Positions 30,754 through 47,823 of a stretch of DNA of 64,000 nt are shown piece after piece. Each line of letters opens with the position of its first letter. The stretch's first letter is position 1. The translations under genes and the position numbers were made by a program. Below the pieces are notes generated by a model. The model did no database searches. It was not told the origin of the DNA and saw nothing but the letters and a program-made list of their open reading frames with translations. The stretch comes from Pedobacter sp. MC2016-05 (GTDB taxonomy: Bacteria > Bacteroidota > Bacteroidia > Sphingobacteriales > Sphingobacteriaceae): NCBI RefSeq assembly GCF_026239735.1, contig NZ_JAPIVT010000013.1, forward strand, positions 62,001-126,000, written 5' to 3'.

Positions 30754-32601
30754 ATGCAGTTTTTAAAATTTGTTTTCTCGTTTTTATTTCTACTACAAAC
30801 CAGCAAAGTTTCAGCTCAACATGTGAGTAAGTCCAATGAAAAAATGCAGTGGTTTGCCGATGCAAAGCTCGGTATTTTTATCCATTGGGGAATTTATTCT
30901 GTGAATGGAATTTCAGAATCGTGGTCATTTTTCAACAATTACATTAACCACGATGCTTACATGAAACAACTGGAAGGGTTTGGTGCTGATCAATACAATT
31001 CGCAGGAATGGGTAAATCTGATTAAAGAAAGTGGAGCCAAATACGCGGTAATCACCACAAAACATCATGATGGCATTTCACTTTGGAATAGCAAAGCAGC
31101 GAATGCAACTACAACCATAAAGAATAGTGCAGCAAAAAAAGATTTGATCACGCCTTTTGTAAATGACTTAAAGAAAGCGGGATTAAAAACCGGTCTGTAT
31201 TTTTCGCTGCCCGATTGGAGTTACCCTGATTACGATATCTTCACCCGGGAAAGGAAACGTTATGATTTAAAAAAAAATCCAAAACGCTGGAACATTTTTT
31301 TAAACTATTACCATACACAGCTAAAAGAACTTTCAAATCAGTATAATCCTGATTTATTTTGGTTTGATGGAGATTGGGAACATACTTCTGCCGAATGGCA
31401 AACAGATAGAGTTCGAAGTTTATTGCAAAATAAAAATCCTGAGATTATCATCAACTCACGCCTTGATGAGCAGGGCGACTATGAAACGCCAGAACAAGGT
31501 GTACCAATTGTTAAACCCACAGGTAGCTACTGGGAGCTTTGTTATACTATGAATGATTCATGGGGCTACCAGCCTTATGATAGTCGTTATAAATCGTCTA
31601 ATATGATCATTAGAACTTTGATAGACTGTATCAGTATGGGCGGAAATTTGTTGCTTGACATTGGCCCGAAGCCGGATGGAACAATCGCCTCTGAGCAAGT
31701 TAAAATTTTGAAAGATTTAGGCCGTTGGACTAACAAACATGCAGATGCAATTTATGGCACTACAGCAGGCATACCAAAAAAGCATGTGAATGCTAAAACT
31801 GCTTTATCAAAAGATAAAAAGCAGCTCTACATTTATTTAGATTTCAAAACCACACATGGTATTGTTTTATCAGGCATTAAATCAAAAATAAAAAAGGTAG
31901 ATGTGCTTGGCAATGATGCGCCCGTTGAAACAACAAAACTTAATGATACAGATTATATTTTTGATATTAAAGAAGAACAGTTCGATAAAGATGCTACCGT
32001 ATTACGGGTTACTTTTAGCGGAGAAATACAGCTATCAGAAGAAAAGGATGAGCCAATTTCGTTTCAAACGTTATTCGAAGTTACTCCTGCAACGGATTTT
32101 ACAAATTTAAATCTGAGCACCCTTTCAAGTAATTTAAATGATGGGATCAATATTTTCGATAATACTAATCTTGCTGCAGATGGAAAGGACTTTAAATCGG
32201 GTATCAAAAATTCAAAGAAAAGCATAAACGAATGGGTTATAAAAAATGCAGAAGCTTTATATAAAACCAAAGCTGGCATTCCTACAGGGCACTATCAAGG
32301 TAATACTGTACTTTCTGCAGATAAACAAACACTGTATTTATTTTTAGAAGGTGAGCCTACAGGCCCAATTTCGATAAAGGGATTAGAAAATAGAATAAGT
32401 AGAATTCGGGTGGTTGGACAAGGCACGATGCTAAACCATGAAATTTACAACAAGCTTTATTGGAGCAAAATACCAGGTATTGTATACATCGATATTCCAA
32501 AAGAAATATTAGATACACACTTAACTGTAATTGCGGTACTTTTAGATGGACCTCTAAAATTGTACCGAGGAAACGTGGGCGCAATTGAAAGCAATCTCTA
32601 A
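30754..32601 (+). CDS. GH29 alpha-L-fucosidase with duplicated C-terminal domain
   Basis: An exported glycosidase (signal peptide ends VSAQ, about 22) that removes alpha-L-fucose from glycans. The (beta/alpha)8 catalytic domain shows IHWGIYS (43-49), TTKHHDG (101-107) and the nucleophile in WFDGDW (Asp205). The protein is 615 residues, longer than usual, because the beta-sandwich after the barrel (about 326-425, DAIYGTTAGIP then LSKDKKQLYIYL) recurs at about 495-605 (EALYKTKAGIP then LSADKQTLYLFL). It stands apart from the GH29-GH3 locus at 35484-40827. Confidence 0.88.
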   Translation: MQFLKFVFSFLFLLQTSKVSAQHVSKSNEKMQWFADAKLGIFIHWGIYSVNGISESWSFFNNYINHDAYMKQLEGFGADQYNSQEWVNLIKESGAKYAVITTKHHDGISLWNSKAANATTTIKNSAAKKDLITPFVNDLKKAGLKTGLYFSLPDWSYPDYDIFTRERKRYDLKKNPKRWNIFLNYYHTQLKELSNQYNPDLFWFDGDWEHTSAEWQTDRVRSLLQNKNPEIIINSRLDEQGDYETPEQGVPIVKPTGSYWELCYTMNDSWGYQPYDSRYKSSNMIIRTLIDCISMGGNLLLDIGPKPDGTIASEQVKILKDLGRWTNKHADAIYGTTAGIPKKHVNAKTALSKDKKQLYIYLDFKTTHGIVLSGIKSKIKKVDVLGNDAPVETTKLNDTDYIFDIKEEQFDKDATVLRVTFSGEIQLSEEKDEPISFQTLFEVTPATDFTNLNLSTLSSNLNDGINIFDNTNLAADGKDFKSGIKNSKKSINEWVIKNAEALYKTKAGIPTGHYQGNTVLSADKQTLYLFLEGEPTGPISIKGLENRISRIRVVGQGTMLNHEIYNKLYWSKIPGIVYIDIPKEILDTHLTVIAVLLDGPLKLYRGNVGAIESNL

Positions 32602-35483: not shown

Positions 35484-38159
35484 TCACAATACTTTAAGGG
35501 TTTCCTTTAACAATAACGCTTTACTCGATGCGCCAATCATGATTCGGAAATCTCCTGGTTCAATCACAGATTTCATTTCTGCATTGAGCATTTTCAGCAT
35601 TTCTGGCTCGATTTCAAACACAATCTCTTTACTTTCTCCTGGTTTTAAGCCAATTCTCTTGAATCCTTTAAGTTCCAATACTGGCCTTACAACGGTTGCC
35701 AACATATCCCGAATATAAAGTTGAGCAACTTCTTCACCTGCCCGGTTGCCGATATTTTTTAGTTTAAAAGTGGCGGTAACCTTCTCATGTTGATTGATTT
35801 CACGTTTACTCAAAACCAAGTCACTGTATTCAAATTCTGTATAACTCAAGCCGTAGCCAAATGGGAATAGTGGTTCTCCACTAAGGTTATTGTAATCATC
35901 ACCACGTCCGGTAGGTTTATGGTTATATACCAATGGCAATTGCGATTCATGTACCGGGTAGGTTATCGGCAATCGCCCGGCAGGATTATAATCGCCAAAA
36001 AGCATTTCCGCTATTGCGTTTCCTCCTTCTTCCCCCGGATACCAAACATTTAAAACAGCAGGTACATGATCTATCCAATTATTCATCGTAATTGCACTTC
36101 CACCAACCAATAGCACCACAACAGGCTTACCGGTTTTAGCCATTTCATTAATTAGCTGCTCCTGATTTCCAGGCAAGTTCAACATGGCTCGATCTTGAAA
36201 TTCACCCTCCTTTATACCGGCAGCAATCACCACAACATCTGCTTGTTTGGCAATCGAAACGGCTTCAGCGAGTTCTTTGTCAACATTATCAATCACTTCA
36301 AAATCAGAAATGAATTTGATGTAGGCATTGCCTTTCGTTTCTTGGAATTCGATGCGGACGGCATATTTTTTATCTTTTTCAAAATTAAAAGAGATCAGGC
36401 GACTATGATAAGAAGTTTTCTCCCATTGATCGATCAACAATTTATCGTTGATAAAAAGTCTGAAACCATCATTCCCTTCTAAGCCGATCTTGAATACTCC
36501 GGTTTTCGGAGCAACTAAATTTCCAGTCCACCTTACCGAGTATAGATCTTTTGCAAGTTTGCGGTCGGGCGCATAAAGGGTCCACATGAAATCGATTTTC
36601 TTGTCGATTCTGGTAACCACCGGTGAGCCGCTGAAGTTCAAATTATCGAAGAATTCGGCCTTTAAACCACTTGTTGTATCGGTACGTAAAAAATTAGCTG
36701 GAATAATTTGGTAGAATTTAGGATCGCGACTGCTTCCTTTCGTATAAAGTACATTTCCTGGTTGCCCCACCCTTTTCCTGATTCCTTCCAGAATACTGAT
36801 TTTACCATTTCCAGAACCGCTGTAACCTCCTAGACGTGCTTCAGTGGCATCTTCTCCTAATACTAAAATCTTCTTCTCGGTTTTTAGGGGCAGTATTGAT
36901 TGCTCATTTTTTAACAGCACAAATGACTTTTGGGCGGCTGCTTTTGCTACAGATTTATTGCGTTTATCGCTTACAGCTTTTTCAGCATCCTTTTCTGATA
37001 CATATGGATTTTCGAAAAGCCCCAAATCAAACTTTGCTTTTAAAACCCTTGAAACGGCATCATCGATTCGGCTTTTCGAAATTGAACCATTCAAAAATGG
37101 CGGAATGAAAAGTTTGTAGTGATCAAATTCAGTTTGAAAAATCACATCTAACCCGCCTTCAATGGCTTGTATGGTGGATTGTGCATAGCCTGTTGCGGTA
37201 TGATGCAATACGCTAGCTCCACCAACGGCTCCAGCATCAGAGATTACAAAACCTCCGAAACCCCAATCCGTTTTTAACTTTTGAGTAAGCAATTGATAGT
37301 TTGATGTTGCCGGAGTTCCATCAATAGAATTGTAAGCCGTCATCAGCGATCTGCTTTTGCCCTGTTTTATGGCCACTTCAAAAGGCGGATAATAGATTTC
37401 CTTCATCATCCGCTCATTGAAATGGATAGGATAACTGTCGCGACCGCCATCGCCCACATTTGCAATAAAGTGTTTAGGTGTGGTAATAATATTTTGCTTT
37501 TCGAATGCGCTGACAAAAGCCAAACCCATTTGCGAAGAAAGAAAGGGATCTTCACCGTAGGTTTCTTCGGTTCTGCCCCAACGCACATCCGATGCGATGT
37601 TTACTACCGGCGTCAAAATATCTCTAATTCCTCTCACTTTAGTTTCTCCAGCTATTGCCCGGGCAACATTAGCCATATTTTCGGTATCAAAACTGGCTGC
37701 AAGACCAATTGCCTGGGGAAAAGCAGTTGCACCTTGACGCACCAAACCATGAAGGGCTTCATCAAAAGGAATAATCGGAATGCCCAGCCTGGTTTCAGTT
37801 ACGAAAAATTTCTGGATGGCGTTAATTTTCTTGGCCAATGTGAACGCATTTTCTGAAGTATTGTAGCTCATCATTTGGTTGGCACCACCACCACCTTGAG
37901 ATACAGCACTTACCTGTAAACCGAAGATCCCATTTTGATAACGCTTTTTGTCCACTCCGTCAAGGTCGCCGGGAATCATAAACAATTGCCAGAATTTTTC
38001 TTCCGGAGTCATTCTCGCCAGCAAATCCTTCACCCTGTCATCAATACTTGCCTTCGCATCTTTGTAAACAGGGGTTGTTTGCTTTTGTGCAAATGTGTTT
38101 ATTGCATCAAGAGAAAAAATAGTTATCCCAAGAATGGCTACAAAACATTTTATCTTCAT
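35484..38159 (-). CDS. GH3 beta-glucosidase with PA14 insert
   Basis: An exported beta-glycosidase, 891 residues. Order: signal peptide (about 1-25), GH3 N-terminal barrel with TPKHFIAN (KH at 229-230) and nucleophile Asp308 in FVISDAG, GH3 C-terminal alpha/beta domain, a PA14 carbohydrate-binding insert within it (about 498-620, GNDGFRLFINDKLLIDQW), and a fibronectin-III-like end (about 790-880). The insert position is typical of GH3 enzymes with PA14. It lies 11 bases after the GH29 gene, in one operon with the ROK regulator. Confidence 0.92.
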   Translation of the reverse strand: MKIKCFVAILGITIFSLDAINTFAQKQTTPVYKDAKASIDDRVKDLLARMTPEEKFWQLFMIPGDLDGVDKKRYQNGIFGLQVSAVSQGGGGANQMMSYNTSENAFTLAKKINAIQKFFVTETRLGIPIIPFDEALHGLVRQGATAFPQAIGLAASFDTENMANVARAIAGETKVRGIRDILTPVVNIASDVRWGRTEETYGEDPFLSSQMGLAFVSAFEKQNIITTPKHFIANVGDGGRDSYPIHFNERMMKEIYYPPFEVAIKQGKSRSLMTAYNSIDGTPATSNYQLLTQKLKTDWGFGGFVISDAGAVGGASVLHHTATGYAQSTIQAIEGGLDVIFQTEFDHYKLFIPPFLNGSISKSRIDDAVSRVLKAKFDLGLFENPYVSEKDAEKAVSDKRNKSVAKAAAQKSFVLLKNEQSILPLKTEKKILVLGEDATEARLGGYSGSGNGKISILEGIRKRVGQPGNVLYTKGSSRDPKFYQIIPANFLRTDTTSGLKAEFFDNLNFSGSPVVTRIDKKIDFMWTLYAPDRKLAKDLYSVRWTGNLVAPKTGVFKIGLEGNDGFRLFINDKLLIDQWEKTSYHSRLISFNFEKDKKYAVRIEFQETKGNAYIKFISDFEVIDNVDKELAEAVSIAKQADVVVIAAGIKEGEFQDRAMLNLPGNQEQLINEMAKTGKPVVVLLVGGSAITMNNWIDHVPAVLNVWYPGEEGGNAIAEMLFGDYNPAGRLPITYPVHESQLPLVYNHKPTGRGDDYNNLSGEPLFPFGYGLSYTEFEYSDLVLSKREINQHEKVTATFKLKNIGNRAGEEVAQLYIRDMLATVVRPVLELKGFKRIGLKPGESKEIVFEIEPEMLKMLNAEMKSVIEPGDFRIMIGASSKALLLKETLKVL

Positions 38160-38170
38160 AGTGTTTAATT

Positions 38171-39595
38171 TTATTGCGCTGTAAACTCAAAAGCAAGCGC
38201 TGCCGTACGATCAACTTTAGGAATAGAAACGCAGGTTTCTCCATCAACACTTTTCCATTTTACTTTGTTACCTGTGGAAAGCAAAATGATTTCAGTGCCT
38301 TTTTTGGGTGCGTTTCCTTTCCATTTCACCATATCTGGTATTGCTTGCTCTGGTAAGCAATGAATTGCGAATCTCTTTTTGGAATCTTTACTTTGAGTAA
38401 ACCAGGTTTGTCTGTCGTGATAATCTTTTGTGATGCGGGTGCCGTAAATTGCTTTTCCATTTTTGGAAGTCCACTTTCCAATTTCATTAAGTTGTTTAGT
38501 CACGTCGTCAGGGAGCGTTCCATCTGGTTTTGGCCCAGCACCAAGTAATAAACTGCCACCTTTTGCAACAATTTCTACCAGTTTATGAACTACTTCTGTT
38601 GAAGATTTATATTGATCGTTAGGTACAAAACCCCAGGCACCGCCTAAAGTCATGCAACTTTCCCAGGGATAATCCAATTGTTTTTCCGGAATCCGCTGTT
38701 CAGGAGTTTGGTAATTTTCGTAAGGACCATGAACGGTTCTATCTACCATTAACAACCCTGGTTGTGCTTTCCTTGCCATTGCAGCAATTTTTGGCATATC
38801 AATATCCTGGCTCCATTTAGGGATATTTGCACCCCACGACAGCACCTCTTCGTTCACGGTTTCCAAAGGACGAACCCAGCCCCCATCGAGCCAAAGAATA
38901 TCTACACTGCCGTAGTTATTCATTAATTCTCCAATCTGGTTGTAGGTAAAATCCTTGAATTTATTCCAACGCCATGGATATTTTTTGATATCGTAATTAT
39001 TGTTTCGATCTGCCGTAGCATACTTTTGCCACCAATAATATTGCGAATGCCAATCGGGTTTAGAAAAGTAGGCACCAATCATGAAGCCATCTTTTCTAAA
39101 AGCATCAAAAACATATTTGGCAACATCTGCCTTTGGGTTATTGGCAAAAGGTCCTTTGGCAATGCTGAAATCGCTTTGCTTGGTATCAAACATGGCAAAA
39201 CCATCATGATGTTTGGTAGTAAATACGAGATATTTCATCCCTGCAGCTTTCCCCGCAGCCGACCATTTCTCGGGGTTGAACTTAGTTGGATTGAACTTTT
39301 TGCTAAAATCCCAGTACCGTTTTTTATATTCCTCGTAAGCGATGGTAGAATCTCTTTCGATCCAATCTTCAGAACAGATAGACCAAGATTCGATAATTCC
39401 TGGAACAGCATACAAACCCCAATGGATGATCATGCCAAACTTTTTATCCTGCCACTGCTCTAATTTTTCTTTTACCAAAGGATCTTTTGGCCACTCGTAA
39501 GTAGCAGATTGTTTTACAATATCATTGCGTTCCTGTGCAGAAGAAAACGCGATTGAAAGTGAAAATAGATAAAAGGAAAATATTAATTTTTTCAT
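38171..39595 (-). CDS. GH29 alpha-L-fucosidase
   Basis: An exported alpha-L-fucosidase, 474 residues. Seen: signal peptide (ends SSAQ, about 21), MIIHWGLYAVPG (55-66), TTKHHDGFAMFD (126-137), nucleophile Asp237 in WLDGGW, and a short beta-sandwich at the C-terminus. Only one copy of that domain, unlike the GH29 at 30754. It lies 41 bases after the ROK gene and 11 before GH3, so fucose removal and beta-glycoside cleavage should be co-regulated. Confidence 0.92.
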   Translation of the reverse strand: MKKLIFSFYLFSLSIAFSSAQERNDIVKQSATYEWPKDPLVKEKLEQWQDKKFGMIIHWGLYAVPGIIESWSICSEDWIERDSTIAYEEYKKRYWDFSKKFNPTKFNPEKWSAAGKAAGMKYLVFTTKHHDGFAMFDTKQSDFSIAKGPFANNPKADVAKYVFDAFRKDGFMIGAYFSKPDWHSQYYWWQKYATADRNNNYDIKKYPWRWNKFKDFTYNQIGELMNNYGSVDILWLDGGWVRPLETVNEEVLSWGANIPKWSQDIDMPKIAAMARKAQPGLLMVDRTVHGPYENYQTPEQRIPEKQLDYPWESCMTLGGAWGFVPNDQYKSSTEVVHKLVEIVAKGGSLLLGAGPKPDGTLPDDVTKQLNEIGKWTSKNGKAIYGTRITKDYHDRQTWFTQSKDSKKRFAIHCLPEQAIPDMVKWKGNAPKKGTEIILLSTGNKVKWKSVDGETCVSIPKVDRTAALAFEFTAQ

Positions 39596-39636: not shown

Positions 39637-40827
39637 TTAATCAAATTGACTGTTTTCGATTATTAGGCCGGCAGCTGCTAGTAATTCTGCCTCATCAGTT
39701 AGCGTAGATAACTTGATTTTGGTTTGGCCTGCAATTCTTGGTATACAGAATTCATTTATCGCTTGTTGGATTGGAGGCAGCAGCATTTCTCCGGCCTTTG
39801 CTCCTCTTCCACTTAACACAATGCATTCTGGGTTAAGAATATGAATTAATGTTGATAACCCCTTTCCTAACTGAAATCCGGCTTTAGACAAAATAGAAAC
39901 TGCTAAGGGATCTTGAGCAATTACAGCATCTAAAAAATGATCTCTTTGATGTTTAGTTTTATCTTTAAACAACTCTTTCATACTAGATTCTGCGCCATTG
40001 GCTAAAGCCTGTCCAGCTTTTTCTGCCATCACGAGCAATGAAGTATCAACCTCTAAACACCCCCTTTTTCCGCAAGAACATAAATTGTTACTATCAGATA
40101 GTGGAATATGGCTAAACTCACCAGCATAGCCCGTACTTCCTCTGTAAAGTTGGCCGTTGATAATCATACCAAGCCCCGTTCCCCAGCCAATATTTACAAC
40201 CATCACTTCTTTCAAATCCATTGCCTCACCGAAATTGAGTTCGGCCAAAGCGATTAAACTTGAATCATTATCAATAAAAACCGGAAGTTTCACTGCTGAG
40301 GAAATAAATTCGCGTAATGTTAACCCATTATTAATTGGAAGATAGGACAGGTTTATACCTAATTCTGCATTCACAAAACCTGGCATTCCAATCCCTATAC
40401 CTAAAATATCTTTTCTTTTTATTTTTGATCTATCAATACTCTCATTAATAAAATTTACCAGTGTACAAACATCGCTTTTATCATTAGACAAGTCGAAATC
40501 CAGGTATTGCATGGGTACGATTAACTTTCTAGACATATCATAAACGGTAAGTCTGGTAATGAGTTGATCCATGGCAATGGCCACAATAAATTTATTATGA
40601 TTTGGGTTAAGCAGGTACATGGACGGGCGTCGACCGCCAGTAGAAGGTGCTAATCCTTGTTCTATGATATAACCTTCAGCCATTAAATTGTTGACAACAG
40701 AGGTAACCAATGGTAAACTCTTTTTGGTGAGCTTACTTAAATCGGTTAATGACAGCGCTATTTTATAATAGAGATGCTTGATAATATCAGCTTTTAAACG
40801 CTGACCTTTCTCGATGATAACAGACAT
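39637..40827 (-). CDS. ROK-family transcriptional regulator (NagC/XylR type)
   Basis: A sugar-responsive DNA-binding repressor, 396 residues: winged helix-turn-helix at about 10-60 (LTDLSKLTKKSLPLVTSVVNNL), then the ROK sugar-kinase-like fold with GIGIGMPG (144-151), VNIGWGTGLGM (211-221) and the ROK zinc site H240 with CSCGKRGC (Cys250, 252, 257). It lies directly upstream of the GH29-GH3 pair and probably controls this locus in response to a liberated sugar. Ligand unknown. Confidence 0.9.
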   Translation of the reverse strand: MSVIIEKGQRLKADIIKHLYYKIALSLTDLSKLTKKSLPLVTSVVNNLMAEGYIIEQGLAPSTGGRRPSMYLLNPNHNKFIVAIAMDQLITRLTVYDMSRKLIVPMQYLDFDLSNDKSDVCTLVNFINESIDRSKIKRKDILGIGIGMPGFVNAELGINLSYLPINNGLTLREFISSAVKLPVFIDNDSSLIALAELNFGEAMDLKEVMVVNIGWGTGLGMIINGQLYRGSTGYAGEFSHIPLSDSNNLCSCGKRGCLEVDTSLLVMAEKAGQALANGAESSMKELFKDKTKHQRDHFLDAVIAQDPLAVSILSKAGFQLGKGLSTLIHILNPECIVLSGRGAKAGEMLLPPIQQAINEFCIPRIAGQTKIKLSTLTDEAELLAAAGLIIENSQFD

Positions 40828-40871: not shown

Positions 40872-42179
40872 TTATTTTAATAGGAGCTTTTCATCGCCCT
40901 CTTTGTATGGAAGAAACAGCATTAACATCGTCATCATCTCATCACTTGATTTCATATCATTAGCTGAAAAAACCATTTTGGGAGGATTATTAGGATTGTT
41001 AGGGTTATTTCTCGAGTTATCGTAAGTAGCCTCCATTGTTAAAATGGAACCCTTCGGAATTTTTATCAGTTGCTTGAAACGATAAATTTCTTGCCATCTA
41101 AAATCCCATGATGGAATAGAAACTAAATTAATCGTTTTTCCATCTGGTGTTACTGCATAAGCTTTGAAATCTTTTCCCAACAGATGCATATGTGGCCAAA
41201 TATATAATAAGGACTGATCTTTCGGTGTAACTATCTTTAAGTTAAATTTCTTTATAGAATCAGCCGGAATCATGAAGTAAGGATCAATTGAATTTTCTCC
41301 GACTCCAGCAGAACCCAAGCTGACTACATCTATTTTCCTTTCTATTGGTGCCTTTTTAAAGAAAAAATTAACGCCTGAAATGCTTTCTTCTTCTTTTGCT
41401 GATGGACCATAATGAATGGTAAGTAGAATTACACCTCTTTTCGGCATTACCCAACCTAAATTAGCCGGATAGGATTCGAATGATGTTCCCGGAATCCAAC
41501 CCCCATAGTAGGTCATTTCCTTTTTAAATGGCATAAATTGATCATAATCGGATCGGTCGCCATCTGTTAAATTTACATAGTCGGCCGCACTATTGATATC
41601 TACACCATCCGCTACCGGATGTATGGCGAAATTTGCATGATGAATAAGTTTCTTATTTGAGGAGAAAAATTCAATTGCCTCTACATTTTTTTCTTCGCCG
41701 AGCTCAAATGGTATCTTGAAAACGATGAAACGTTCTTCCCTATCTGATTTGACGATGAAGGGCTTCATTGTTTTTAAAACCAGTTCTGGCTTACGGCTGT
41801 ATTGTGTTCCTTCTATATAATCCTGCTGCAATTTACCTTTAGCCTTAACTGTACCCTGAGGCATTTTATCATCAACCCAGGCACTAATCATTTTCTTTTC
41901 AACTTCACTTAACGACCGATCATTCTCAAAGCTTCGGTAATGATTATCTGGCTTCCAGGGCGGCATAAAACCAGATTGGGTCACTTTCTTTATAAAGCTT
42001 CCTCTTTTTGAAACATCTTCATAGGTTAATAATGCAAAAGGTGCCGCTTCTCCTGGCCGGTGGCAGGGTGTGCATTTATTTTTAATTATTGGTGCAATAT
42101 GCTCATAGTAGGTTAATTTCTGACTAAAACCCCCTTTAATCACTAGTAAGGCAATAAATAATAACAAAATTTTCTTCAT
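40872..42179 (-). CDS. Periplasmic cytochrome c / type-II copper monooxygenase-like protein
   Basis: A 435-residue exported protein (signal peptide ends GGFSQ, 20) that fuses a cytochrome c-like module to a domain resembling ascorbate-dependent copper monooxygenases such as PHM. The heme site is CTPCH (36-40) with a candidate axial Met72 in FMPPW. Candidate copper ligands are all present: HH at 180-181, His256 in LTIHYGP, HMH at 330-332 in WPHMHLLG, and Met382 before YDNSRNNPNNP. One base separates it from the upstream redoxin gene. Substrate is unknown; its place among glycosidase genes is unusual. Confidence 0.75.
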   Translation of the reverse strand: MKKILLLFIALLVIKGGFSQKLTYYEHIAPIIKNKCTPCHRPGEAAPFALLTYEDVSKRGSFIKKVTQSGFMPPWKPDNHYRSFENDRSLSEVEKKMISAWVDDKMPQGTVKAKGKLQQDYIEGTQYSRKPELVLKTMKPFIVKSDREERFIVFKIPFELGEEKNVEAIEFFSSNKKLIHHANFAIHPVADGVDINSAADYVNLTDGDRSDYDQFMPFKKEMTYYGGWIPGTSFESYPANLGWVMPKRGVILLTIHYGPSAKEEESISGVNFFFKKAPIERKIDVVSLGSAGVGENSIDPYFMIPADSIKKFNLKIVTPKDQSLLYIWPHMHLLGKDFKAYAVTPDGKTINLVSIPSWDFRWQEIYRFKQLIKIPKGSILTMEATYDNSRNNPNNPNNPPKMVFSANDMKSSDEMMTMLMLFLPYKEGDEKLLLK

Positions 42180-42180
42180 T

Positions 42181-42750
42181 TTATTTGTCGTTAATTAAGC
42201 AGCCAACTGGCTTAGTAATTTTAACAGGGTAGTTGGGTGTAGTCAGGTTCGCAAGGGCGTCATTTAAATAATGCGACGTGACAACTTTGCGTTTAACTCC
42301 AAGGCTCTCGGCCCAGTTATCAATTAATCCACGATATTTTAGTGTACCCTCTTTATCGATTAAGATAACCTCTGGCGTAGTGGTGGCATTCAATGCTGAT
42401 GTTAATAATTTTAAATCGTCTACCAACAAGGGGAAACCTACCTTGTATTCATCCTTGAAAGCCGATATTTCCTTCAGTTTATAAGCATTTCCGGGAATTA
42501 GGCCCAGTATTTCCACGTTTGGATATTTTAATTTTAATGCGTTAAGTTCCGCTACATAATTTTGACATAGCGGACATTCTGGAGACAGGAAAATAAAAGC
42601 CGTAGCCTTACCAGCCATGATATGATCTGTTTTTCCATTTAATGCCTTTAACGGAATTTTTTGCAGCTTTTGAACGGAAATTTTGCTTTGGGCCTTCGCT
42701 CCGTAAATGCTTAAATTAATTAGCAACAGATAGGTGAAAATTCTAAACAT
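42181..42750 (-). CDS. Exported redoxin (AhpC/TSA-like thioredoxin fold) protein
   Basis: A periplasmic thioredoxin-fold protein of 189 residues with signal peptide (ends AKA, about 20). Its CxxC pair sits in SPECPLCQNY (Cys59, Cys62). The cis-Pro region is TTTPEVILID, and an extra Cys lies near the C-terminus in KPVGCLI (about 185). It probably exchanges electrons or assists metal or heme handling for the copper monooxygenase-like protein encoded 1 base downstream; similar redoxin and monooxygenase modules are, as I recall, fused in some other bacteria. A terminator hairpin lies just upstream. Confidence 0.78.
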   Translation of the reverse strand: MFRIFTYLLLINLSIYGAKAQSKISVQKLQKIPLKALNGKTDHIMAGKATAFIFLSPECPLCQNYVAELNALKLKYPNVEILGLIPGNAYKLKEISAFKDEYKVGFPLLVDDLKLLTSALNATTTPEVILIDKEGTLKYRGLIDNWAESLGVKRKVVTSHYLNDALANLTTPNYPVKITKPVGCLINDK

Positions 42751-42801: not shown

Positions 42802-44520
42802 TTATTTCTTATCCCACCAAACTCTTCCGGTAATATCACTTGGTCCCTGACCAAAATCAGGATCTGCCTGCATTGCTTTGTAGGCATCTGTAATATTTTG
42901 ATAGTTTAGATTTGTGATTGACGGGATGCTTAACGCTGCTCTTCTTGGAATAGATTGCTCGGTACCCGAGGCTATAATCCTTTCAAGCGCAACAACAGTT
43001 GTGGTATTTGGCATACCTGTTCTTTTAAAAATTGCCCAGGCTTCGTTAGGTTGTTTAAAAAAGTTAAGGTAAGCCTGACTGATAATTTGATCCAAACCTT
43101 TGGCTGCATCATACTTAACTGGCGTTTTAGCAAGATAGTTGCTAATTTCTGTCGCTGTTACGGCTTGATAATTAGCAGCACCTGTGCGATCAATAATTTT
43201 AGCTTTGTTTGCAAGATCATCATACAACCTGATAGATGCTTCTACACCTTTATTGTACCAGCTTTCAGCGCTTTCTGATGTTACGCCTCTTGCTGCTAAC
43301 TCAGCACGCATAAAACAAACATCAGGATAAGTAATCAAAGGAAATGCGTTCATCCCTGTACCGCCATTTTCACCAGCGGCAAAAAGGCGTGGTTGAATCA
43401 GTGATAAGGTATCCATCACCTGGGGCACACTTTGTCCACTTGCATTTCTTACCGTGATAGTGATGTTGTTAAGGAATTTAGCAAAGTCTGGCGCAGCAGA
43501 GGCATCCGGACTTGTAGCAACACCATAATATCTTCTCGGATCGAAGGTTGAAGAAGCTGGAACTTTACCTTGTGCCTTAGCCAGGTCGAAATTGGTTTGA
43601 CTAAATAAATTCTCCTGATAGAAAAACCTGATTCGAGGATCGGAATTGGTATACATGAAATCAACAATTGGCCTAGGAGCACGCAGGTTCCCAGCCGACC
43701 AGTCTCCACCATCTGCGTAGTTGGCATTGGCTCTAAAAATCCAACTTTCATTCGCATTATCAATCAAACCACCTGGGGCGGCTAAAATATCCAATACTTT
43801 AGTTCTCATTTTAGCAGCATCTCTCTTCATTAAACGCATCGCTATTCTCAATCTTGTTGAGTTTGCCACTTTTATCCATTTAGCCACATCACCCTGAAAA
43901 AACAGGTCGTTTTTACCAAAAGAAGTTTGTGCAACAGGTTGCGTTGCACTTAAAGTTGTTACTGCGCTTTTTAATTGAGCGTCAAGAATATCAAATAGTT
44001 CAGGTTGAGTGTTATATTTTGGTGTTTCAGTACCGCCATATCTCACCATAAAGGCATCTGTGTATGGAATGCTGCCACTAATATCAGAAACATAAAAGGC
44101 ATAATAAGCCTTAACTATTTTTGCAATTTCGACTTCATGTACTCTTTTTGCCTGTTCTTCTGCAGACATTTTTCTAATCAGTTGTTCTACATCTGTAAGG
44201 TTACCACCTACTGCAGGATAGAAAATGCCATAACGAACATTTCTTAAACTGCCAGATTCCGAAATAAATGTTACACTATTTCCAGCAAGTGGAGTCAACA
44301 TTTGCATCCAGGGCATAATGCCTCGAAAGTTATCATAATAAGCCTCGAAACGGTCTCCTTGAATACTTGCAACAGCATTCATAAATTGTTGTTCCGGAGT
44401 AATTACATCGATCAGCTGAGGATTGGTGTTCAGTTCAACAAACTTCTCCTTTTTACAGCCTGTAATGGTCAGCCCAATTAAAGCTGTACAGGTTAAACCT
44501 ATTTTATATATCGTTTTCAT
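42802..44520 (-). CDS. SusD-like lipoprotein (SusD/RagB homologue, second Pfam type)
   Basis: Ligand-binding surface lipoprotein, 572 residues, of the shorter-motif SusD-like class rather than the classical SusD_RagB type: lipobox TITGC (Cys22), ELNTNPQLIDVITPEQQF, RIAMRLMKRDAAKM (about 226-239) and a C-terminus with FKQPNEAWAIFKRTG and VWWD. It follows susC by 21 bases. Confidence 0.88.
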   Translation of the reverse strand: MKTIYKIGLTCTALIGLTITGCKKEKFVELNTNPQLIDVITPEQQFMNAVASIQGDRFEAYYDNFRGIMPWMQMLTPLAGNSVTFISESGSLRNVRYGIFYPAVGGNLTDVEQLIRKMSAEEQAKRVHEVEIAKIVKAYYAFYVSDISGSIPYTDAFMVRYGGTETPKYNTQPELFDILDAQLKSAVTTLSATQPVAQTSFGKNDLFFQGDVAKWIKVANSTRLRIAMRLMKRDAAKMRTKVLDILAAPGGLIDNANESWIFRANANYADGGDWSAGNLRAPRPIVDFMYTNSDPRIRFFYQENLFSQTNFDLAKAQGKVPASSTFDPRRYYGVATSPDASAAPDFAKFLNNITITVRNASGQSVPQVMDTLSLIQPRLFAAGENGGTGMNAFPLITYPDVCFMRAELAARGVTSESAESWYNKGVEASIRLYDDLANKAKIIDRTGAANYQAVTATEISNYLAKTPVKYDAAKGLDQIISQAYLNFFKQPNEAWAIFKRTGMPNTTTVVALERIIASGTEQSIPRRAALSIPSITNLNYQNITDAYKAMQADPDFGQGPSDITGRVWWDKK

Positions 44521-44541: not shown

Positions 44542-47500
44542 CTATAAAGAACCTTTTAATGAGAATGCAAATGTACGTACGTAAGGCATACCTCCGTATT
44601 CTGCAAAAGCTCCTGCAGTATTATTGAACAAACCTTCAGGATTAAGATGATCTGGTAAACTGTTGTATATGTAAGTTAAATTCCTTGCGATTACACTTAC
44701 GTTAATTCGGTTGAAACTAAGTTTTTCTGTGAATTTTTTAGGTAAAGTATATCCTACCGAAACCTCTCTCAGTGCAACCCAGCTATTTTCGAATGTAGAA
44801 TATTCTCTAATACCTGTAGACCATTGTGTTAAACGTGCGTAATGGACACGGGCACTTACTGGCTGAATCAGCCCTCTGTTCACAGCCTCCTGGAAAGTTA
44901 AACCAGAAACATTAACATTACTGATTGTTGTACCTGCTGCAAAAACACCTTCAGGGATGATACCATCATTTGCAATGATATTTCCTTGTGCATCTTTTCT
45001 AGGTAAACCACCTAAATCAGCAGAACGGCCAAATAATGTGCTTTCAAATGCACCGAAATTTGTGCCATACTGATGTGTTCCAGAAGCTATTAAACCACCT
45101 ACTTTAGCATCAATTTGGAAATTAACATTAAAGTTTTTATACCTGATATTATTGATTAAGCTTCCGTTGTACTTTTCCATCATACTACCCAAATTTTTGT
45201 TGCCCTGGCCTAAATCACCACTTCTCCAATAACTTCCATTTGCTTTTAAAAGCTTTTGACCGCTGTTAGGATCAGTAGCATAACCATAACCAGTATAAAT
45301 ACTTCCGTATTCTTGTCCTGCAACAGCAACTGAACTCATGTCAGCTCCAAATGCATACCCCAAAGTGTAAGTATCAACGCCTGGAGCTAATTCAATAATT
45401 TTATTGCGATTGCGAGCAAAGTTCAAGGTGGTATTCCATTCAAGATTATTCGACTTAATTGGTGTACCAGTCAATAGTATTTCTATACCCTTGTTCTGAA
45501 TGTTTCCTGCATTAAATAGTTTTTGACGAACTCCAGACTCAGACGGCAATGCCAATGACAAAATCTGATTAGTTGTATTCTTTTTATAGAATGAGAAATC
45601 TATTCCAAATCGATCATTAAAGAAACGTAATTCTGCTCCCAATTCAATTTCCTTAGTTAACTCATTTTTCAATTGTGAATTTCCTAAAGTATATTCAGGA
45701 TATCCATACCTAGGCATTTGATTGCCATTTTCATCAATATAAGTGCTTAAAAACGAATATTTACCTTTACTCGTTGTGTATGGCGCAGTTCCCAATCCGG
45801 TGTGACCATAATTGGCTCTTAATTTACCGTATGAAAGAAATGCGAAAGCATCATTATTTTTTAAAGATTCAGAAAAAACATAAGATAAACCTACTGATGG
45901 ATATAAATAACTATAATCGCCACTACCATCAGGATAAGTTAAAGTTGAAGACCAATCGTTTCTTACACTATAGTTTAACGTAAGCATATTTTTATAAGAG
46001 AAATCTCCGTAAGCATATACCGCATCGGTACGTTGGCTTCCATCTATCGAGAAGTCAGTAACTGCTGTATTTACAGAGTTTCCGATAAAGAACTTACCCG
46101 GATCTTTCAATCCTCCGTCAGTTCTGGTACGGGTGTAGTTATTACCAAAATCTTTAGTGGTTTCGGCACCAACACTTAAGCTTAAGCTGAAATTATCTGT
46201 AATTTGCTTATTTCCGTTTAATAAAAACTGGAACCTTGTACTTCTTTGATCTGACTGGCTTTTAGCATATTCGCCTCCGGTAAACCCAACACCTGTACCA
46301 ATATTTTTTGTTTCCTGTGAAGTATTGATTTGGTTTAACGTACCACGTAAAACTGCATTTAACCATGGCCTAATATTGGCTGTAATATCAAGGTTACCTC
46401 TAAAATTGTTTTCACGTTGTCTAACGTTAGTATTGTAGATCGACCACCAAAGCGGAGCTAAACCATATGGGTCATCGCTACCTGTTAAGATACCGCCATT
46501 TGTTGGGCTAATATATTTGTCTTTCCAATAGTTGGTATCATAGCTTCTTGGATTCGCGTAAACCAAGGCAAATAAAGGATTATTGTTATTTGACTGGTTA
46601 ACCGGATTAAAACTATTACTAGTAGTATAGTTTACACCAGCGTTAATTTCGAATAGTTTAGCAAATTTATGCGAACCTCTAAAATCGAAAGCGTCCCGCT
46701 CAAATTTATTATTTGGCAAAATACCTGTGCTGAAAAGTTTAGTATATGAAAGACGGAAAGTTCCGTTTTCGTTAGCCCCCTGGAATGCAAGATTTGAATT
46801 GCTGTAGTTTCCTAATTTATAGGCATCAAGTAGATTATTTGGCTTTGCATCCCATGTAATTATCCTACCATCAATGTCCTTAACCTGACTTCCGTCGAAT
46901 CTTGGGCCAAAGCTCCAAAAATAGTTAGCGGCATCAACCTGTGGAATACCATCGGTACCTTTCGTAAATGTTGGATTAATACCCGCACCGAAGTCATTCT
47001 GTAAATCCATAGTCCGGTAAGCCTCCTCGATTGTTTGAGTATGAGAAAATGAAATTCCTAAACCCTGACCTGCTTTCCCTTTTTTAGACGTGATCAAAAG
47101 CACTCCATTCTGGGCTCTCGAACCATATAAAGAACTTGCAGCAGCACCTTTCAATACCGTTATGCTTTCATAATCATCAGCATTTAAGTTTTTCATGATG
47201 TTACCAAAATCCTGGGCACCATTACCATATGAGTCAGCTCCTGAAACACCTGGCTGAATCAAAACTCCATCAATCACAACTAAAGGTTGAGTATTCGGAC
47301 TTAATGAAGAGTTACCCCTGATTCTGATTCTTGATGATGATTGCGGACCGCCTGTTCCCTGGTTAATCACAACACCAGCTACTTTACCCTGTAAAGCGTT
47401 TACAATGTTTGGTTCATTGGCACGAACCAAATCATCGCCTTTTACATCCTGAATAGAATAACTCAACTTTCTGGTTTGTTGCTTCACTCCAAAACCTGTT

Positions 47501-47823
47501 GTTACTACTACTTCATCAAGGGCTTTAGAATCTTCTTTCAGAGAGATGTCTATTGATGAACGATTTTCAACTGGTATTTCAGTTCTTAAATATCCAATTG
47601 CTGAGAAAACAATAGATTCTCCTGGGTTTAGAGAAAGACTATATTTTCCGTTTGCATCAGTTTGGGTTGCCCGCTTCGTTCCTTTTACAGAAACACTAAC
47701 CCCAGGCACGGGGTTTCCGGTTACATCTTTAACGGTACCAGTAACCGTTTTTTGAGCATACGCACCTATAAACAATAATGTTAATAAGAATGCAGTAAAT
47801 AGCCCTTTGTAGATTTTTTTCAT
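44542..47823 (-). CDS. SusC-like TonB-dependent receptor (glycan locus)
   Basis: Outer-membrane importer, 1093 residues: signal peptide ends GAYAQ (24), carboxypeptidase-regulatory-like domain (26-100), plug with SRIRIRGNSSLSPNTQPLVVIDG and LYGSRAQNGVLLITSKKG (about 165-250), then the barrel. There is no STN domain and no sigma/FecR gene nearby, so induction must be by another route, perhaps the ROK regulator at 39637. It heads the block of seven same-strand genes ending with GH29 and GH3. Confidence 0.93.
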   Translation of the reverse strand: MKKIYKGLFTAFLLTLLFIGAYAQKTVTGTVKDVTGNPVPGVSVSVKGTKRATQTDANGKYSLSLNPGESIVFSAIGYLRTEIPVENRSSIDISLKEDSKALDEVVVTTGFGVKQQTRKLSYSIQDVKGDDLVRANEPNIVNALQGKVAGVVINQGTGGPQSSSRIRIRGNSSLSPNTQPLVVIDGVLIQPGVSGADSYGNGAQDFGNIMKNLNADDYESITVLKGAAASSLYGSRAQNGVLLITSKKGKAGQGLGISFSHTQTIEEAYRTMDLQNDFGAGINPTFTKGTDGIPQVDAANYFWSFGPRFDGSQVKDIDGRIITWDAKPNNLLDAYKLGNYSNSNLAFQGANENGTFRLSYTKLFSTGILPNNKFERDAFDFRGSHKFAKLFEINAGVNYTTSNSFNPVNQSNNNNPLFALVYANPRSYDTNYWKDKYISPTNGGILTGSDDPYGLAPLWWSIYNTNVRQRENNFRGNLDITANIRPWLNAVLRGTLNQINTSQETKNIGTGVGFTGGEYAKSQSDQRSTRFQFLLNGNKQITDNFSLSLSVGAETTKDFGNNYTRTRTDGGLKDPGKFFIGNSVNTAVTDFSIDGSQRTDAVYAYGDFSYKNMLTLNYSVRNDWSSTLTYPDGSGDYSYLYPSVGLSYVFSESLKNNDAFAFLSYGKLRANYGHTGLGTAPYTTSKGKYSFLSTYIDENGNQMPRYGYPEYTLGNSQLKNELTKEIELGAELRFFNDRFGIDFSFYKKNTTNQILSLALPSESGVRQKLFNAGNIQNKGIEILLTGTPIKSNNLEWNTTLNFARNRNKIIELAPGVDTYTLGYAFGADMSSVAVAGQEYGSIYTGYGYATDPNSGQKLLKANGSYWRSGDLGQGNKNLGSMMEKYNGSLINNIRYKNFNVNFQIDAKVGGLIASGTHQYGTNFGAFESTLFGRSADLGGLPRKDAQGNIIANDGIIPEGVFAAGTTISNVNVSGLTFQEAVNRGLIQPVSARVHYARLTQWSTGIREYSTFENSWVALREVSVGYTLPKKFTEKLSFNRINVSVIARNLTYIYNSLPDHLNPEGLFNNTAGAFAEYGGMPYVRTFAFSLKGSL

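Follow-up and report, generated by a model that had tools for sequence, protein, structure and literature searches.

A 64,000-nucleotide stretch of the Pedobacter sp. MC2016-05 genome (NCBI RefSeq assembly GCF_026239735.1, contig NZ_JAPIVT010000013.1, positions 62,001 to 126,000 of the forward strand; hereafter the window) encodes a 435-residue protein which, judging by its sequence and its AlphaFold model, is predicted to belong with the PHM/DBH-fold dicopper monooxygenases. Our preferred reading, with a probability of about 0.5, is that it is a specialised periplasmic dicopper monooxygenase whose own cytochrome feeds it electrons and which acts on what the neighbouring SusC/SusD pair imports, and that it is not a peptidylglycine hydroxylase.

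The genes concerned are listed in Table 1. SusC, SusD, redoxin, cytochrome/PHM, ROK, GH29, and GH3 genes follow each other in this order on a single strand with successive gaps of 21, 51, 1, 44, 41, and 11 bases, and the short same-strand gaps suggest that the whole run is probably one operon. The initial annotation had described the two central reading frames, with their lengths, strand, and 1-base gap, as lying between susCD and ROK-GH29-GH3. Both points were confirmed, the latter by Pfam for the flanking genes and by NCBIfam for SusC. The presence of a SusC/SusD pair, glycoside hydrolases, and a regulator makes this a SusCD-type polysaccharide utilisation locus. The GH3 gene product may be either a beta-glucosidase or a beta-xylosidase, as all NCBIfam models that it matched scored below their cut-offs. 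The Bacteroidota promoter pattern TTTG-N-TAnnTTTG matched 6 times in the window, where chance alone would give 5.6, and none of the matches lay just upstream of SusC. The 435-residue protein is 100% identical to one from Pedobacter sp. Leaf41; no relative was found in the plasmid collection searched. PF03712 had one match in the protein's own genome and none in 14 control genomes.

Table 1. Genes of the predicted operon and a nearby GH29-type gene (window positions).
Feature	Position	Strand	Remarks
SusC/RagA TonB-dependent receptor	44542..47823	-	1093 aa; NCBIfam TIGR04056, 552 bits (cut-off 368)
SusD-like_2 protein	42802..44520	-	572 aa; lipobox by eye; PF12771, E 4.9e-56
Redoxin	42181..42750	-	189 aa; signal peptide by eye; AhpC-TSA/Redoxin (Pfam)
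Cytochrome c / PHM-DBH-type dicopper monooxygenase-like protein	40872..42179	-	435 aa; Sec signal peptide by eye
ROK-family regulator	39637..40827	-	396 aa; PF00480, E 2.3e-42
GH29 alpha-L-fucosidase	38171..39595	-	474 aa; signal peptide by eye; PF01120, E 1.3e-98
GH3 beta-glycosidase with PA14 insert	35484..38159	-	891 aa; signal peptide by eye; PF00933, PF01915, PF07691
Second GH29-type gene	30754..32601	+	615 aa; extra C-terminal part; about 3 kb from the GH3 end

The N-terminal 105 residues of the 435-residue protein are mainly helical (DSSP of the model) and carry the heme motif C36-x-x-C39-H40; Met72, within MPPW, is the candidate axial ligand. The predicted copper ligands are His180, His181, and His256 for CuH and His330, His332, and Met415 for CuM. 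All ten of these residues occurred in 82 of 82 homologue rows, and the same ten were invariant in an earlier alignment of 38 homologues. Both parts of the initial annotation's reading, a CxxCH heme site with a candidate axial Met and the six residues of PHM-type copper sites, are therefore backed by conservation, and a profile match and the predicted fold point the same way. A profile of the catalytic part matched human dopamine beta-hydroxylase (DBH; E 6.6e-7) and PHM (1yjk; E 8.4e-5), with the HY and HxH motifs in register with both enzymes and the HH pair in register with DBH; for the DEM motif, the only alignment to PHM was a second segment that did not reach significance. A single-sequence search of PDB sequences gave nothing useful. 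In the Pfam scan, Cu2_monoox_C (PF03712) was barely over its threshold (23.7 bits, cut-off 23), PF01082, which we take to be the N-terminal copper domain, had no match listed at E 0.1, and Cytochrome_CBB3 (E 0.028) remained below its cut-off.

The AlphaFold model of the protein (pLDDT 89.9, pTM 0.85) shows a two-domain jelly-roll catalytic fold. Superposition on PHM and DBH, which covers part of a check suggested at the outset, gave Z 22.7 with DBH chain A (rmsd 3.1, 281 residues aligned) and Z 21.1 with PHM 6ala (model residues 128-425), and the first row outside the family stood at Z 7.7. Among the fold matches of the whole model there was no cytochrome; this carries little weight, since one domain fills the list.

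We compared the gene neighbourhoods of homologues in a genome collection and in a sample of the order. The collection gave 31 loci from Pedobacter, Chitinophaga, Ohtaekwangia, Runella, Parapedobacter, Sphingobacterium, strain A37T11, and one MAG (two contigs). SusC and SusD were directly upstream in 31/31 and a redoxin was present in 26/31, together with ROK in 25, GH29 in 13 (the second-type GH29 alone in 1 more), GH3 in 9, a UnbV plus PAP2 pair in 12, and an esterase-like gene in 6; these are lower limits, because some of the loci are cut by contig ends. UnbV/PAP2 genes occurred without GH29 in 6 of the 31, both Runella loci included. In the order sample, a homologue was found in 49 of 400 genomes, and the 54 match rows gave 52 loci once the window's own gene was excluded and the rows of a split gene (in G026) were merged. 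Some genomes are common to both sets, and one of the order loci (L112) encodes a protein 100% identical to that of the window. In the 45 order loci at least 48% identical, SusCD was directly upstream in every case and redoxin was found in 44, and the fetched stretches, mostly 18 kb long, held ROK in 42, GH29-like genes in 27 (counting matches down to 29% identity), GH3 in 11, UnbV plus PAP2 in 13, and esterase-like genes in 8. In all these neighbourhood surveys, the phylum-level loci below included, neighbours were named by BLAST to proteins of the window or locus and not by Pfam for each gene. Among the seven loci below 48%, SusCD was found in none and redoxin in three.

These results show that SusC-SusD-redoxin-cytochrome/PHM forms the constant core, and most stretches also hold a ROK gene (42/45). 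Whether the pair sits at random genomic positions in relatives had been raised in the initial annotation; in close relatives its position is non-random, and chance adjacency to SusCD is rejected by the 45/45 loci. The co-occurrence with GH29 and GH3 stood only in part: GH29 was found in 27/45 stretches, but the link is looser than that to SusCD, and GH3 was found in only 11/45. A unit requiring these enzymes is rejected, GH29 being absent from 18 and GH3 from 34 of the 45 stretches, and for the same reason a fucosylated substrate is not forced. As a rough yardstick, 7 of 56 listed SusC genes of the same genome lay within 9 kb of a GH29 gene (56 of 136 candidates were scored, the window's own SusC not among them). 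The loci are not independent, because many Pedobacter copies share one site beside a gene like the LepB-like neighbour of the cassette in the window; Parapedobacter, strain A37T11, and Ohtaekwangia also have GH29 close to the cassette, with the genes in different orders. An FG-GAP/UnbV plus PAP2 module often follows the cassette (for example L035:9365-14032 and L174:9584-14271). One PAP2 sequence has the motifs KxxxxxxRP, PSGH, and SRxxGGIHY, which we take to be compatible with phosphatases and haloperoxidases alike, so either a phosphatase or an enzyme resembling vanadium haloperoxidases is conceivable. In L057/L104 (the same record) the gene after the monooxygenase is PNGase F-like, as it is, in the form of a shorter ORF, in L088, and the run of L129 includes a GH18 gene at a greater distance downstream. 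Since the neighbours vary in this way (PNGase F-like, GH18, esterase-like, UnbV/PAP2), different species may have different substrates, or the substrate may be a plant glycoconjugate of complex structure.

Matches in 6 of 35 sampled congeners and in 15 of 23 genomes of other families of the class indicate that the gene is patchy and accessory. At the phylum level, 25 of 395 genomes matched (30 match rows), and SusCD adjoined the homologue in 6 of the 15 places fetched (L174, L175, L176, L177, L178, and L184). The SusCD pair of L178 is on the opposite strand to the homologue; this locus (L178:4378-16221) has the same genes (UnbV, redoxin, cytochrome/PHM, SusD, SusC, and ROK), with the redoxin-monooxygenase pair reversed against SusCD, so the set holds together through rearrangement. 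L177 and L184 have SusCD pairs from different subfamilies, their SusD proteins sharing 25% and 23% identity, respectively, with that of the window. Of the 21 distant class-level loci surveyed, L080 was dropped as it had no recognised monooxygenase ORF; in the remaining 20, a redoxin lay within 1.5 kb in 9 and SusCD was adjacent in none; in L069 a pair lay about 4.6 kb away. From this distribution, the ancestral unit seems to have been redoxin plus cytochrome/PHM, and the SusCD link seems to have come later.

Removal of near copies from 93 distinct ORFs, each 380 aa or longer, left 82 rows, from which a tree was built; a row was called SusCD-linked if a SusD match lay within 2.5 kb on either strand. 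In this tree, which came from a quick search without bootstrap, was midpoint-rooted, and has some long branches, 46 of 47 linked rows fell into one clade (SH-aLRT 99). The 47th, L184, stood apart, and its separate branch and other SusCD subfamily make a second recruitment possible. Several homologues departed from the usual form. The monooxygenase gene is split into two ORFs in L088 and L089 (genomes G026 and G047), and in G806 the match is interrupted by one TGA, although an ORF that retains the ten metal-site residues is still present (L176). By a crude check, a lipobox was present in 9/35 unlinked rows, including a fusion (L188), and in 3/47 linked rows; lipoprotein-like distant homologues were L065, L066, L068, L070, L071, and L137-L139 by this check and L063 and L067 by eye.

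The distant Bacteroidota pairs without SusCD, with a redoxin within 1.5 kb in 9/20 and adjacent SusCD in 0/20, would favour the view that an ancestral housekeeping redoxin-cytochrome-PHM pair was caught in a SusCD operon and plays no part in uptake. We consider this highly improbable, since the pair is kept beside SusCD in 45/45 loci whose outer neighbours differ and residues beside CuM are fixed only in the linked clade.

Two such residues stood out. Trp328 precedes the first CuM His by two residues and occurred in 46/46 rows of the SusCD clade; Thr417 follows the CuM Met by two residues and occurred in 45/46. Neither was present in the 35 unlinked rows. The exceptions were L184, with Leu and Glu at positions 328 and 417, and L177, with Asn at 417. 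Position 419 was Leu in 35/47 linked rows and Tyr in 15/35 unlinked rows. By alignment of the PHM motifs, Trp328, Thr417, and Leu419 stand at the places of PHM Arg240, Asn316, and Tyr318, which we take to be the anchors of the peptide carboxylate. A plain peptidylglycine hydroxylase was rejected on the ground that these anchors are absent. Because the clade has a total of 25 such fixed positions (at least 93% inside, below 25% outside), shared descent may partly explain Trp328 and Thr417. The two changes beside unchanged metal sites would nevertheless fit a change of substrate at the origin of the SusCD link.

Two other readings bear on these sites. In the first, the enzyme would oxidise a non-sugar part of an imported glycoconjugate, such as a phenolic aglycone, a peptide, or an amine, as DBH does a benzylic carbon, and the sugar genes would trim the rest. 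DBH is indeed the best structural match, although within 2 Z units of PHM; the PNGase F-like genes (L057/L104 and L088) and the GH18 gene (L129) suggest glycoproteins in some species, and esterase-like genes occur in 8/45 loci. Given, however, that the PHM peptide-carboxylate anchors are replaced by Trp328, Thr417, and Leu419 and that the nearby regulators are of sugar type (ROK or LacI), we regard it as rather unlikely. In the second, the protein would not be a monooxygenase at all: SusCD would bring in chelated copper or heme, for which the cytochrome/PHM protein and the redoxin would act as a periplasmic metal reductase or copper handler. A redoxin, a cytochrome, and copper sites would suit metal reduction, and distant homologues occur without adjacent SusCD. 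This reading is unlikely in view of the two copper sites, complete in 82/82 rows as a dicopper enzyme needs, the ROK/LacI regulators and GH29/GH3 neighbours, and the residues fixed beside CuM in the SusCD clade.

The redoxin contains Cys59, Cys62, and Cys184. Among 57 redoxin rows (distinct sequences shorter than 230 aa, each encoded no more than 1.5 kb from a homologue, the window's included), Cys59, Pro60, and Cys184, the last in a C-terminal G-C-x-I, were present in all 57, while position 62 was Cys in 46, Ser in 10, and Ala in 1. The initial description of a CxxC redoxin thus holds for the window protein (CPLC), but the second Cys is kept in only part of the family, and the conserved CxxC of ResA/TlpA is not a feature of these redoxins. 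From this pattern, Cys59 and Cys184 are likely the redox or metal-binding pair. The redoxin model (pLDDT 92.5) matched the Thermus thioredoxin-like structures 2ywo/2cvb with Z 20.1 over residues 21-189, and its fold list contained 2ywo, 2cvb, 3u5r, and 2ywi at Z of about 20, ResA at 15.9, and peroxiredoxin Q at 14.3. CP and the C-terminal G-C-x-I are shared in the 2cvb and 2ywi alignments; in contrast to these thioredoxin-like proteins, the redoxin has a signal peptide (by eye), and its second Cys is at +3 (CPLC) and varies, rather than at -3 (CNHCP).

The redoxin and monooxygenase genes are closely associated. Of 82 same-strand ORF pairs, 78 overlapped or were at most 30 bases apart, as computed with mechanical start codons, and in one distant genome redoxin, cytochrome, and PHM are fused in a single 599-aa ORF (L188:7756-9555; redoxin profile E 4.2e-24), a natural fusion that supports joint working of the two proteins. 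No redoxin was found beside SusCD and the monooxygenase in L047, L048, L049, L052, L062, and L175, which are from Runella, Ohtaekwangia, one MAG, and G610. The only cysteines of the 435-residue protein are the two heme ones, which is more in line with a redoxin that reduces the heme site or handles copper than with one that repairs disulfides. In the alignment, 15/20 SusCD-clade rows and 4/18 others had only this pair; the extra cysteines of the remaining rows (5/20 and 14/18) make the argument weaker outside the window protein. It might also be supposed that the copper sites use H2O2, with the redoxin as a peroxidase partner controlling H2O2 and the PAP2 protein of some species as a haloperoxidase. 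The AhpC-TSA match, the peroxiredoxin Q in the fold list, and the UnbV plus PAP2 genes in 13/45 loci could be read in this way. Such a peroxide-driven system seems very unlikely, however, because the redoxin is nearest to the thioredoxin-like structures, ahead of ResA and then peroxiredoxin Q, and the PAP2 motifs suit a phosphatase as well as a haloperoxidase.

For the preferred monooxygenase, we infer the metal loading, the electron path and donor, the reaction, the substrate, the product, and the role of the redoxin as follows. The dedicated SusC/SusD pair would import a fragment of a glycan or glycoconjugate, probably one that carries fucose. The 435-residue protein, located in the periplasm, would bind one c-type heme and two coppers (CuH and CuM), and electrons supplied by the respiratory chain or by some other donor in the periplasm would pass to the heme and on to the coppers, the cytochrome domain replacing the ascorbate that serves PHM and DBH. 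O2 would be activated at CuM, and the imported molecule would receive one oxygen at a C-H bond that most likely adjoins an ether or glycosidic oxygen or belongs to an attached group, after which GH29 and GH3 would finish the molecule. The redoxin, via Cys59/Cys184, would keep the site loadable by reducing the heme-binding cysteines or handling copper. Bovine PAM is reported to carry out sulfoxidation and N- and O-dealkylation (PMC6669573), and its O-dealkylation makes ether cleavage on a glycan chemically reasonable. A reading that goes one step further, and that we hold to be less likely than not, is that the SusCD-linked clade is a glycan-active dicopper monooxygenase of the PHM fold, driven by its cytochrome and not by ascorbate. 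It would cleave the imported glycan at an ether or a glycosidic bond, by O-dealkylation or chain cleavage, with Trp328 and Thr417 facing the sugar, and would fill in Bacteroidota part of the place that copper LPMOs hold elsewhere.

The systems known from SusCD loci are chiefly hydrolytic, and the carriers of the cassette are soil and plant-associated bacteria. If true, a conserved oxidative copper enzyme tied to SusCD would extend the means of Bacteroidota from soil and leaves to oxidation, and the PHM/DBH family would gain a bacterial branch with a heme electron donor. Our search of the literature on bacterial PHM/DBH-like proteins, copper monooxygenases, and SusCD loci, and on UnbV and haloperoxidases, dealkylation, P450 demethylation, and LPMOs, whose coverage lacked most subscription journals, found no description of the cassette. 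Trp328, Thr417, and Met72 of the monooxygenase and Cys184 of the redoxin are concrete targets. The system could also provide a tractable model for electron delivery to two coppers, which the DBH structure paper calls a difficult point for that enzyme (PMC4846438).

Among known systems, human DBH (PDB 4zel) is the closest in structure. Its ligands, given in the same paper as His262, 263, and 333 for CuH and His412, 414, and Met487 for CuM, all have counterparts in the 435-residue protein, and chain A, the best structural match, is described there as a closed form with the coppers 4-5 A apart (PMC4846438). DBH has an N-terminal DOMON domain, for which the Pfam scan of our protein gave no match; in its place the bacterial protein has the mainly helical CxxCH domain, and it is encoded in a SusCD operon. 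PHM (1phm and 6ala) shares the fold and the H-x-H, HY, and D-E-M motifs, whereas the 435-residue protein differs in its heme domain, in having only the two heme cysteines, and in the residues at the anchor places. Animals use copper enzymes of the PHM/DBH kind to make noradrenaline and peptide hormones. PHM is described as widespread in eukaryotes (PMC8812541). With respect to glycans, LPMOs likewise combine copper, O2, and a glycan context, but their fold and copper site are unlike those of PHM/DBH. A 2016 paper stated that no LPMO had so far been discovered in Bacteroidetes (PMC5127042). A further parallel is the cytochrome P450 that is reported to demethylate 6-O-methyl-D-galactose during porphyran use by marine bacteria (PMC10033563); it too is an oxidative enzyme serving glycan use, although it belongs to an unrelated enzyme class.
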